Source: SAR202 cluster bacterium (lineage in GTDB: Bacteria; Chloroflexota; Dehalococcoidia; Lucifugimonadales; Lucifugimonadaceae). From it: a stretch of DNA of 64,000 nucleotides. Shown piece by piece: positions 24,857-28,958 of this stretch. The stretch is from contig VFGU01000012.1 of assembly GCA_009392285.1 (NCBI GenBank), positions 100,045-164,044 on the forward strand. The letters run 5' to 3'. Within the stretch, counting starts at the first letter, position 1. Each line of letters opens with the position of its first letter. A model generated the notes under the pieces. The model had not been told where the DNA came from. It saw only the letters and a program-made list of their open reading frames with translations, and did not search any database. Position numbers and translations under genes: made by a program.

Positions 24857-25850
24857 ATTAAATAGAAAATTGACTGATTTGAGGATCTCTGTAACTGACA
24901 GGTGTAATTTTAGATGTCGATATTGTATGCCTGAAGAACTTTATGGGGAAGCTTACGAGTTCCTAAAAAAAGATCAAGTGTTGTCTTTTGAGGAAATAGT
25001 TAGGTTGACCAAAATATTTATTAAATTAGGTGTTAATAAGGTAAGACTTACAGGAGGAGAGCCCCTAGTAAGAAAAAACATTGAAACATTGATTTCGTCG
25101 ATTTCAAGTTTAGATGAGAGTGTTGATCTAGCAATGACAACTAATGGGTACCTTCTTAATAAATTTGCAAATATATTATTTAGCTCAGGATTAAAAAGGT
25201 TAACAATTAGTTTAGATTCTTTAGATAACGATATTTTTCAAAAAATGAGTGGAAAAAAGTTTAATGTGGATGATGTTTTAATGGGGATAAGTAGTGCTAA
25301 AAAAGCTGGATTTAAAAATATAAAAATTAATTCCGTAATTAAAAAAGGTATCAATGATGAGGGAATAATTGACTTGGTTGATTACTGTAAAAGAGAAGGG
25401 CACATTTTAAGATTCATAGAGTATATGGATGTTGGAACGCTGAATTCTTGGAACAGAGGATCTGTTTTAGATTCAAAAAAAATAATAGATATAATCTCGA
25501 AAAAATATCCAATTCATCCAGTAAGCAAGAACTATTCATCTGAGGTTGCAGATAGATATAAATTTGATGACGGAGAAGGAGAATTAGGATTTATATCATC
25601 GGTATCCAATCCATTCTGTATGTCTTGCACAAGATCTAGGATTACTGCTGACGGAAAATTTGTGACCTGTCTTTTTTCAAACAAGGGGTTAGATTTAAAG
25701 AAGCATTTGAGAAGTAGAGCCACAGACGAAGACATTTTAAATTTAATATCAGAAAATTGGTTAATTCGAAATGATCAGTATTCTTTGGATAGGTCTTTAG
25801 AAAAAGGTAAAGTTAAGGATAAAATTGAAATGTTCCAATTAGGAGGTTAA
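24846..25850 (+). CDS. moaA: GTP 3',8-cyclase MoaA (radical SAM)
   Basis: LRISVTDRCNFRCRYCMPEE, RLTGGEPLVRKNIE, C-terminal PFCMSCTRSRITADGKFVTCLF. C-terminus GG normal. Confidence 0.95.
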   Translation: MKDKLNRKLTDLRISVTDRCNFRCRYCMPEELYGEAYEFLKKDQVLSFEEIVRLTKIFIKLGVNKVRLTGGEPLVRKNIETLISSISSLDESVDLAMTTNGYLLNKFANILFSSGLKRLTISLDSLDNDIFQKMSGKKFNVDDVLMGISSAKKAGFKNIKINSVIKKGINDEGIIDLVDYCKREGHILRFIEYMDVGTLNSWNRGSVLDSKKIIDIISKKYPIHPVSKNYSSEVADRYKFDDGEGELGFISSVSNPFCMSCTRSRITADGKFVTCLFSNKGLDLKKHLRSRATDEDILNLISENWLIRNDQYSLDRSLEKGKVKDKIEMFQLGG

Positions 25851-27085
25851 TCTTCCATTGGGTTATCAATTAAATCATTTTTCACCGACAAGAATGCATT
25901 ATCTAGAGCTTTTTTATTTATATAATTAGGTAGAACTATATCCTTCTCCCATCTTAAGACCGTTGCTCTTGATACGCCAACTTTTTTCCCAAAGTTAGTC
26001 CTAGAAAGATTTAATGATTTCCTCAGATTTGTTATTGAATTGGAGGTCCACTTAAAAATTGGAGTTATTTCAGTATTTTCCTTCACTTTTTTCTTTCCGG
26101 TAGTCATATGTTCTAGAAAATTATTAACATCCGATTTTGAACCTATTATTAAAGGAGTTCTTTGATGAAAATTCTCTGGCTCTATATCTAATATTTCTTT
26201 TTCAAGGTCAACAGCACTTCCGCCAGCAGATGTAAAAATAAGCGCAAATGGATTTGCCTCATACATTAATCTCAGTTTTCCATTTTGATTATTTTTATCC
26301 GAAGGGTAGACAAATATACCTCCATTAATTAGGGTCCTATGAGCATCAGCAACAAGAGAGCCAACATATCTTAATTTCTTATTTTTTGCGGAGGTGCCAC
26401 TCGGGTTTTTTGTATTAAGTAACCATTTTTTTATTTTATTATCCCAAATAGAAAAGTTTCCTTCATTTACCGAGTATATTGACCCTTTGTTTGGAACTTT
26501 AATTTCTGACCTTGATAGAAAATAATCATTTTTTTGGGGGTCCAGGGTAAATTCCGCGACTTTATTATTTGCGCATATTACGAATATATCTGAAGGACCA
26601 TAAAGTGAATAGCCTGCACTTATATAATATCTGCCAGATTTTATGAAACTAGATTTTCCATAATCTGTGTTTCTGATGATCCCAAAAATTGTACCTATAG
26701 GCATATTGACGCTAATATTGCTTGATCCATCTAAAGGGTCTGCTACCACCATAAATCTAGCACTAGAATTAAATATTTTGGGGTCTTTTAGTTCTTCGCT
26801 TGCATATCCAGCACAGGATGAATTTTTTGCTAAAATATCTACCAGTTTATCATTTGAAATTTGGTCTAATATTTGTACCTGCTCTCCTTGCACATTGGTT
26901 TTATCTAAAGAGCCTCTGATTTGCTTCAATCCGGTTACTCTAGTGTCCATTGCAATAAGTTTTGTTGCATCAGCGATTGATTTGATCACACTTGCAAGTT
27001 CATCGTTCTCTTCATTATTATCTTTTAATTCAGATTTAAGATAACTCTCTAGGTTTATATTTCTCATCTCTTGTCTTGGGCACAA
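25847..27085 (-). CDS. fbp: Class I fructose-1,6-bisphosphatase with C-terminal XRE/Cro-type HTH domain
   Basis: VVADPLDGSSNISVNMPIGTIFGI, RYVGSLVADAHRTLINGGIFVYPSD, then ITNLRKSLNLSRTNFGKKVGVSRATVLRWEKDIVLP. Start may be the internal Met at about 27067. Confidence 0.88.
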   Translation of the reverse strand: MCPRQEMRNINLESYLKSELKDNNEENDELASVIKSIADATKLIAMDTRVTGLKQIRGSLDKTNVQGEQVQILDQISNDKLVDILAKNSSCAGYASEELKDPKIFNSSARFMVVADPLDGSSNISVNMPIGTIFGIIRNTDYGKSSFIKSGRYYISAGYSLYGPSDIFVICANNKVAEFTLDPQKNDYFLSRSEIKVPNKGSIYSVNEGNFSIWDNKIKKWLLNTKNPSGTSAKNKKLRYVGSLVADAHRTLINGGIFVYPSDKNNQNGKLRLMYEANPFALIFTSAGGSAVDLEKEILDIEPENFHQRTPLIIGSKSDVNNFLEHMTTGKKKVKENTEITPIFKWTSNSITNLRKSLNLSRTNFGKKVGVSRATVLRWEKDIVLPNYINKKALDNAFLSVKNDLIDNPMED

Positions 27086-27147
27086 TTTGTCTTATATATT
27101 AAAGTTAAACTATATTTCTGAATAATGCATCTAGTAAGAGGTGATAG

Positions 27148-28068
27148 ATGAATGCAACAGACAGAGTCAATGAAATACTTTCTTGGTACCAACATGAGAA
27201 TGGAGGCACTTTAGGAAACATTGAAAGATTATTGATGTCAGGTTATTTGTCCGGAACCGGTAAGTTAGTGATATTGCCAGTAGATCAAGGCTTTGAACAT
27301 GGTCCGGCTAAATCTTTTGCGCCTAACCCCGATGGATACGACCCTGAGTATCATTTTAAATTTGGTATTGAGGCTGGGTGCAATGCCTATGCTGCGCCTC
27401 TTGGTTTTTTGGAACACGGCGCTAAAAAATATGCTGATAAGATTCCATTAATTCTTAAGTTAAATAATTCAGATTCATTATATTCAGGTGATCCTACTCA
27501 GACCATGACTTCGACTGTCGAAGATGCCGTAAGGATTGGTTGTGCAGCAGTAGGTTTTTCTATATATCCTGGGTCAAATTCTTCTCCTCAAATGTATAGC
27601 GAGTTAAGAGAAATAACTAGAGAAGCTAAATCAAAAGGATTGGCCGTAGTAGTTTGGAGTTATCCAAGAGGAGGGTCATTAAAAAAAGAAGATGAGACTG
27701 CTATAGATGTGGTTGCATATGCTGCTCATATAGCTGCCCAGATGGGAGCAGATATTATAAAGATTAAGCCTCCTTCTGATTATATAAGCAACGATGAGAT
27801 GAAGGCTGTATACGAGAAAAATAATATTCCAATCTCCACTTTGTCTGACCGAGTAGCCCATTGCATAAAATCCTCTTTTAATGGGAAAAGAATAGTAATT
27901 TTTTCAGGCGGTCCTGCTAAGGGGACAGATGAAATAATGAAAGAAATTAAGGAGATCTCTGAAGGTGGTGGTTTTGGATCTATAGTCGGAAGAAATTCTT
28001 TTCAAAGACCTTTTAATGAAGGAATTTCCTTGATGAAAGATATTATGAATATCTATAAAGACAATTAA
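27148..28068 (+). CDS. Class I (DhnA-type) fructose-bisphosphate aldolase
   Basis: LVILPVDQGFEHGPAKSF, GADIIKIKPPSDY, VIFSGGPAKGTDE, GSIVGRNSFQRP. Confidence 0.9.
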   Translation: MNATDRVNEILSWYQHENGGTLGNIERLLMSGYLSGTGKLVILPVDQGFEHGPAKSFAPNPDGYDPEYHFKFGIEAGCNAYAAPLGFLEHGAKKYADKIPLILKLNNSDSLYSGDPTQTMTSTVEDAVRIGCAAVGFSIYPGSNSSPQMYSELREITREAKSKGLAVVVWSYPRGGSLKKEDETAIDVVAYAAHIAAQMGADIIKIKPPSDYISNDEMKAVYEKNNIPISTLSDRVAHCIKSSFNGKRIVIFSGGPAKGTDEIMKEIKEISEGGGFGSIVGRNSFQRPFNEGISLMKDIMNIYKDN

Positions 28069-28082
28069 TTTTTATTTATAAG

Positions 28083-28958
28083 ATGATAACAATTTATACA
28101 GACGGGGCATGCTCTGGAAATCCAGGTTTAGGTGGATGGGGAGCTGTGATAATAAAGGAAGACGGAGAAGAAAGTTATTTCTCGGGATCCCAAGAAGATA
28201 CGACAAATAATCGTATGGAAATCCAAGCCGTCATTGAGGGTTTAGAGAATTCAAATTCTGATGAAGAAATAAGAATATTTTCGGACAGCACCTATGTAAT
28301 AAATACTCTAACAAAAAATTGGAAAAGAAATGCAAACCATGACCTGTGGTCAAGGCTAGATGATTTAGTTAAAGGGAGAAATATTAAATGGAATTGGGTC
28401 AAAGGTCACTCTGGGGATAAATACAATGATCTCGCAGACGAACTAGCAGTGAAAGCTATCGATTCTAAAAAAAAAGTAACTCAAAATAACCTAACTCATA
28501 TTGACGATTCTGGAAAATTGAAGATGGTTGATGTTTCTGAAAAAGAAATATCTGAGAGGTTGGCTATTGTTCAAGGTTTCGTTGTGATGAAAAAAGAAAC
28601 ACTAGAGATAATTAAGCAAGGAGAGTTAGATAAAGGAGATATAATAACTCTTGCTAGAACAGCGGGTATAACAGCCGCAAAATCTACTCCTACGCTGATT
28701 CCTTTGTGTCATACTATACCACTTTCTGAGATAAAAATTGAAATAGAATTTGAGGATAATTTACCTGGATTAAAAGTTACATGTATCACAAGAGCTGAAT
28801 GGAAAACAGGAGTAGAAATTGAAGCGTTTAATGGTGTGTCCATTGCGTGTGTGACTATTTATGATATGTGCAAAGCCATAGATAGATCAGCCTATATTTC
28901 TGAAATTAAGTTAATTAAAAAATCCGGTGGAAGTAGTGGGTTATTTGTTAGAGAGTAA
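28083..28958 (+). CDS. Ribonuclease HI - MoaC (cyclic pyranopterin monophosphate synthase) fusion
   Basis: Residues 1 to about 130: IYTDGACSGNPGLGGWGAV, NRMEIQAVIEGL, WVKGHSGDKYNDLAD. Remainder: LTHIDDSGKLKMVDVS, AGITAAKSTPTLIPLCHTIPLS, KTGVEIEAFNGVSIACVTIYDMCKAI. One uninterrupted frame. Confidence 0.92.
   Translation: MITIYTDGACSGNPGLGGWGAVIIKEDGEESYFSGSQEDTTNNRMEIQAVIEGLENSNSDEEIRIFSDSTYVINTLTKNWKRNANHDLWSRLDDLVKGRNIKWNWVKGHSGDKYNDLADELAVKAIDSKKKVTQNNLTHIDDSGKLKMVDVSEKEISERLAIVQGFVVMKKETLEIIKQGELDKGDIITLARTAGITAAKSTPTLIPLCHTIPLSEIKIEIEFEDNLPGLKVTCITRAEWKTGVEIEAFNGVSIACVTIYDMCKAIDRSAYISEIKLIKKSGGSSGLFVRE

Follow-up and report, generated by a model that had tools for sequence, protein, structure and literature searches.

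A C-terminal XRE-type helix-turn-helix domain on the class I FBPase of a genus of uncultured marine SAR202-type bacteria

The window analyzed here, a 64,000 nucleotide stretch of contig VFGU01000012.1 from a SAR202 cluster bacterium, contains a gene in which a gluconeogenic enzyme, a class I FBPase, is followed in the same reading frame by a helix-turn-helix (HTH) domain. This raises the question of whether the two parts form a genuine fusion, whether the protein is still an enzyme, and which DNA its tail might bind.

The fused gene and the state of the enzyme

The initial annotation had placed an open reading frame at 25847–27085 on the reverse strand and had described it as a complete FBPase core followed by a canonical HTH_3 pattern, and both the frame and the order of its domains were confirmed (Table 1). 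Pfam matched three domains over the gathering cut-off in the whole protein, the FBPase N domain PF00316 at residues 22–191 (3.6e-38, 131.5 bits), FBPase_C PF18913 at residues 197–325 (3.8e-42, 143.6 bits) and HTH_3 PF01381 at residues 353–387 (E 1.6e-5, 25.2 bits, cut-off 23). When the C-terminal 80 residues were searched alone the HTH_3 match reached 28.5 bits (E 1.5e-6). A sequence search of solved structures matched eukaryotic and bacterial FBPases to residues ~14–325 and the P22 C2 repressor to residues 351–398. AlphaFold modeling of the tail from six congeners gave four helices with a pLDDT of 93–97 over the domain, and Foldseek matched this predicted fold to HigA2 and P22 C2, so that the HTH assignment was upheld by profile, by sequence and by predicted fold. 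The full-length model from six sequences had a mean pLDDT of only 55 over the FBPase core, and the HTH_3 score of the most divergent congener was 21.4 bits, just under the cut-off. By sequence count the FKWTSNS...NKKA region contains 11 K/R and 2 D/E residues. An ordinary class I FBPase (PF00316/PF18913) shares the complete fold and active site with this protein, which differs from it by an extra tail of ~70 residues containing the HTH.

Table 1. Features of the FBPase-HTH locus, with positions in the window, and loci of the PanB-HTH proteins
Feature	Position	Strand	Remarks
FBPase-HTH gene	25847..27067	(-)	406 aa, read from the ATG at 27067; the longer TTG reading begins at 27085
Class I FBPase catalytic core	26111..27022	(-)	residues 22-325 of the 412-aa reading; PF00316, PF18913; mapped to porcine FBPase
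XRE/HTH_3 domain	25907..26053	(-)	~residues 345-393 of the 412-aa reading; leading F-x-W, four helices; PF01381, AlphaFold, Foldseek, congener alignment
Short conserved C-terminal tail	25850..25906	(-)	ends L[IL]xNP[LMF][ED]; N and P invariant, 9/9 aligned congeners
Divergent FBP/FBA promoter region, 80 bp	27068..27147	(.)	genes divergent wherever the contig of a congener covers the region
Conserved block AAGTTAAACTATATTTCTGAATAATGCATC	27102..27131	(.)	30 bp; candidate operator and/or overlapping promoters; seven-species alignment
DhnA/DeoC-type class I fructose-bisphosphate aldolase	27148..28068	(+)	NF006704 489.8 bits, PF01791; divergent neighbor, candidate target
PanB-HTH loci	L048 / L118 (G011:C15), L159 (G030:C477)

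Translation almost certainly starts at the ATG at 27067 and not at the TTG at 27085, since in three congeners (G001, G004 and G009) a stop codon lies immediately 5' of the equivalent ATG. The gap to the ATG of the divergently transcribed aldolase gene (27148) is therefore 80 bp, the upper end of the 62–80 bp that had been claimed. At its 3' end the gene overlaps the convergent moaA by 4 bp.

To place the active site, residues were numbered as in porcine FBPase. D74, E97, E98, D118, D121, N212, R243, Y244, Y264, K274, R276 and E280 were all identical. Of the mapped residues for metal binding, catalysis and substrate, two were substituted, D68 by E and Y215 by N. Neither a GlpX-type FBPase (controls were detected) in the ten congeneric genomes nor a phosphofructokinase (PFK) over cut-off in the genus was found. 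The congeneric genomes are 55–89% complete, and these absences are nevertheless likely to be real because ten genomes were taken together. Since it retains the catalytic residues and the congeners yielded neither a GlpX-type FBPase nor a PFK, FBPase-HTH is, as judged from its sequence, very likely the working FBPase of the genus rather than a dead-enzyme regulator. With the predicted active site intact, the natural reading would be an enzyme that also binds DNA, and the phrase "metabolite-sensing regulator" used in the initial annotation is better worded as a probably active enzyme with a putative DNA-binding tail and a candidate target.

The residues T27, G28, T31, K112, Y113 and R140, which form the AMP pocket, were altered in five cases (T27N, G28D, T31A, K112R and Y113F), with R140 kept. 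An AMP site is a feature of many but not all class I FBPases, and since several relatives without the fusion have an incomplete one as well, it is no defining trait of the family. Loss of the pocket as a consequence of the fusion was rejected, and we do not tie the change to the HTH, because some unfused relatives have lost parts of it too. It may instead be explained by the lack of PFK, which would leave no futile cycle to guard against.

Distribution and origin of the fusion

The window comes from a MAG of the SAR202/Dehalococcoidia type, in a single genus of uncultured marine bacteria, and those relatives that carry names are MAGs of uncultured SAR202 and Chloroflexi. FBPase was present in nine of ten congeneric genomes and each of the nine proteins carried the HTH tail, at 55–95% identity. 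Some 60 class I FBPases sampled elsewhere in the class and phylum did not have the tail (48 from 393 genomes of the class and 13 from 400 genomes of the phylum, some of them shared); none of these sampled FBPases from outside the genus aligned into the HTH within its open frame and all ended at the FBPase core. Outside Chloroflexota the scan covered close relatives only. In the phylogenetic tree the fused proteins formed one clade with a support of 100/100 on a long stem (1.1 changes per column), and this clade grouped, with support, with FBPases of the same family.

Purifying selection acts on the HTH, whose dN/dS is ~0.05–0.13 compared to ~0.04–0.085 for the core in congener pairs with usable dS. 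The fusion is genuine and is due neither to chance nor to an assembly error: the tail is found in all nine congeneric FBPases, selection preserves the HTH, and the tree unites the fused proteins with full support. Within the sampled range it is a single genus-level innovation in which the HTH was gained once in the genus ancestor, since the fused proteins form one clade and the sampled FBPases of the class and phylum are without the HTH.

Two ideas about related XRE genes were considered and rejected. A separate XRE gene beside FBP in unfused relatives was not borne out, as no HTH was found in 48 flanking loci. An origin of the HTH as a copy of the stand-alone XRE protein of the family was not supported either: a profile built from stand-alone proteins only scored these at 98–120 bits and the FBPase HTHs at 21–38 bits, no better than unrelated XRE domains, and the high scores of the FBPase HTHs on profile A1, which includes fused sequences, arise by construction. 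This stand-alone protein of ~120–200 aa is near-universal in the family (L039:3627-3977; L037-L047, L076-L099), its HTH (RQQT[VI]SEWE) is strongly conserved and its last residues are LPI or VPM, and in the genus of the window its gene adjoins, by eye, those of an M16-type peptidase and an oligoribonuclease-like protein.

Elsewhere in the order the HTH profile also picked up long open frames, most of which were N-terminal-HTH proteins (by eye NYN-like, HsdM, Hsp20 and helicase) or mere frame extensions. N-terminal XRE-HTH proteins with an apparent NYN/PIN-like domain were seen by eye in other genomes of the order (L100-L104, L112, L113, L117, L125).

A second enzyme with a C-terminal HTH_3 was found in two genomes of the sister genus g3, where it is attached to PanB (ketopantoate hydroxymethyltransferase); the two proteins are 69% identical and the other PanBs of the family are without HTH. 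In PanB-HTH, as in FBPase-HTH, a biosynthetic enzyme is followed by a C-terminal HTH_3, with a similar F-x-W...IR-x-LR start, but the enzyme is a different one and its HTH bears no sign of a recent source common with the FBPase HTH. This suggests that C-terminal capture of an HTH by biosynthetic enzymes happened more than once in the family.

The divergent aldolase gene and the 80-bp gap

The divergent aldolase gene reported across a short gap proved to be conserved in every congener whose contig reaches it, in the order coxB, rdgB, moaA, FBP-HTH (opposite direction), divergent aldolase and RNase HI-MoaC. Ten clusters without the fusion were compared elsewhere in the order. Their FBP has moaA, rnhA-moaC and mostly rdgB nearby, co-directionally in 8/10 and divergent from moaA in 2/10, and a DhnA-type aldolase was found beside FBP in none of the ten. 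The only fully read unfused cluster contains a classical class I aldolase (PF00274) directly after FBP in the same direction (L163:3326-4357). The divergent FBP/FBA pair was seen only together with the fusion. Fusion, new divergent position of FBP and different aldolase type therefore go together and, because of the single origin, the fusion, the inversion and the aldolase change count as one correlated event and not as three independent supports. RNase HI and MoaC are themselves fused in one open reading frame (28083–28958), as in roughly half of 118 sampled genomes of the order; in the remaining genomes they are mostly separate genes, often adjacent.

The initial annotation had named the gap as an obvious candidate target of the protein, and its interpretation as a whole was supported in part. 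The gap contains a block that is strongly conserved in seven species, and gap conservation exceeded that of the nearby divergent coxB/rdgB gap (e.g., 0.72 versus 0.43 and 0.62 versus 0.52), although this control gap also holds a conserved promoter-like block. In the congeneric genomes exact matches to the 16-bp core of AAGTTAAACTATATTTCTGAATAATGCATC were found at the FBP/FBA locus only, and a regulon defined by the conserved block was rejected since this exact search returned no other conserved sites. A palindromic operator in the gap of the window clade was likewise rejected, as 257 of 300 shuffles scored as high. A sigma-70 scan of the region was uninformative, with 3 sites where 1.5 were expected. 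The conserved block could simply be two overlapping promoters of the FBP and aldolase genes. The gap is thus a candidate target with a conserved, genome-unique block.

In G006, the most divergent congener, both the recognition helix and the block differ from those of the other congeners. The helix reads EQSTVRKWE in the alignment in place of SRATVLRWE, the conserved block AAGTTAAACTATATTTCTGAATAATGCATC is missing, and the gap contains an inverted repeat, ATTAGAAAAGTAAATATTATTTTCTAAT, with a score reached by 9 of 300 shuffles. The different helix and the different gap, as a single case, would weakly fit co-evolution of the domain with its site.

A putative trigger enzyme, its alternatives and its precedents

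The reading we prefer, to which we give slightly less than an even chance, is that of a working FBPase whose XRE tail, gained once in the genus ancestor, binds the FBP/FBA divergent promoter, so that the protein would act as a local autoregulatory trigger enzyme. Its DNA binding, target, ligand dependence and repression we infer as follows. FBPase tetramers, predicted here as in the family generally, would present the HTH tails as pairs, and these pairs would bind the divergent promoter. The bound protein would repress or adjust both the FBP and the aldolase gene, and occupancy of the promoter might depend on whether the active site holds substrate or product, or on how abundant the protein is.

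Enzymes with DNA-binding domains and proteins that combine an XRE domain with an enzyme fold are already known. The DNA-binding domain of PutA is a ribbon-helix-helix, and NadR and BirA carry their HTH N-terminally. The putative role of FBPase-HTH would, by analogy, fit a PutA-like trigger enzyme acting on a shared promoter. PutA is likewise a metabolic enzyme (proline dehydrogenase/P5C dehydrogenase) fused to a DNA-binding domain, and the short putA-putP spacer separates its gene from a divergently transcribed, functionally linked neighbor; PutA itself binds this spacer as its only target (PMC8249747). It differs in that PutA moves to the membrane with proline, whereas FBPase-HTH has a C-terminal XRE-HTH on a phosphatase and its DNA binding is only predicted. 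PutA, NadR and BirA are all trigger enzymes, that is, enzymes that acquired a DNA-binding domain (PMC8249747); the Escherichia coli proteins NadR and BirA share this feature with FBPase-HTH but are other enzymes with other effectors. BzdR joins an XRE-type HTH to a central-metabolism enzyme fold, a shikimate-kinase-like domain (PMC3602430), but its HTH is N-terminal and its enzyme domain inactive, while in FBPase-HTH the HTH is C-terminal and the predicted active site intact. Searches of the open-access literature, which omits most subscription papers, turned up no bacterial FBPase with an attached DNA-binding domain.

Other readings of the tail were weighed against local autoregulation. The HTH may no longer read specific DNA and may serve oligomerization, protein interaction or nucleoid tethering; we consider this unlikely, but it keeps some weight because the HTH and the linker diverge faster than the core (HTH 60–61% versus core 73–75% identity between the window and L006/L050, and 35% versus 60% for L005) and because the NP[LMF][ED] end is conserved beyond the HTH. 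The changed recognition helix of G006 and the lack of a palindrome in most gaps point the same way, while the XRE signature residues and the basic surface are kept and regulators that track their operators usually change faster too. Alternatively, the HTH could bind specific DNA but have its main target elsewhere, at other carbon-metabolism promoters, which would make the protein a wider regulator coupled to gluconeogenic flux. The XRE domain is basic, well formed and held by purifying selection, and nothing links it exclusively to the FBP/FBA gap. However, the sole conserved candidate site searched was matched exactly nowhere else in the genomes of the genus, a search that is blind to different sites, and trigger enzymes with a single target, PutA among them, control genes next to their own (PMC8249747), so that we hold a wider regulator to be about as unlikely.

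That the fusion plays no part in regulation and is a near-neutral by-product of gene joining in a streamlined genome seems very unlikely: these genomes do contain other fusions, such as the adjacent RNase HI-MoaC, but the HTH has stayed intact, at a dN/dS far below 1, across species whose proteins share 55% identity. Least credible is an FBPase part that serves as a sensor only, catalytically dead like the enzyme domains of BzdR or MocR-type regulators. The very long stem on which the fused clade sits and the altered AMP pocket could be read in this way, but with the catalytic residues kept, no other FBPase in the ten congeneric genomes and a low core dN/dS we regard it as extremely improbable.

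An extended version of the preferred trigger-enzyme reading, which we regard as doubtful, would make the FBPase at once enzyme, flux sensor and transcription factor of the FBP/FBA pair, replacing AMP allostery in a genus without phosphofructokinase, and one of two C-terminal XRE attachments in SAR202, together with PanB-HTH. FBPase is a committed step of gluconeogenesis and, if FBPase-HTH binds its own promoter region, the resulting circuit would be minimal, with one protein, one 80-bp promoter and two genes. Such a circuit, if true, could tie gluconeogenic flux to gene expression in uncultured marine bacteria with small genomes, and it would provide a testable case of an enzyme gaining a regulatory domain while still active.
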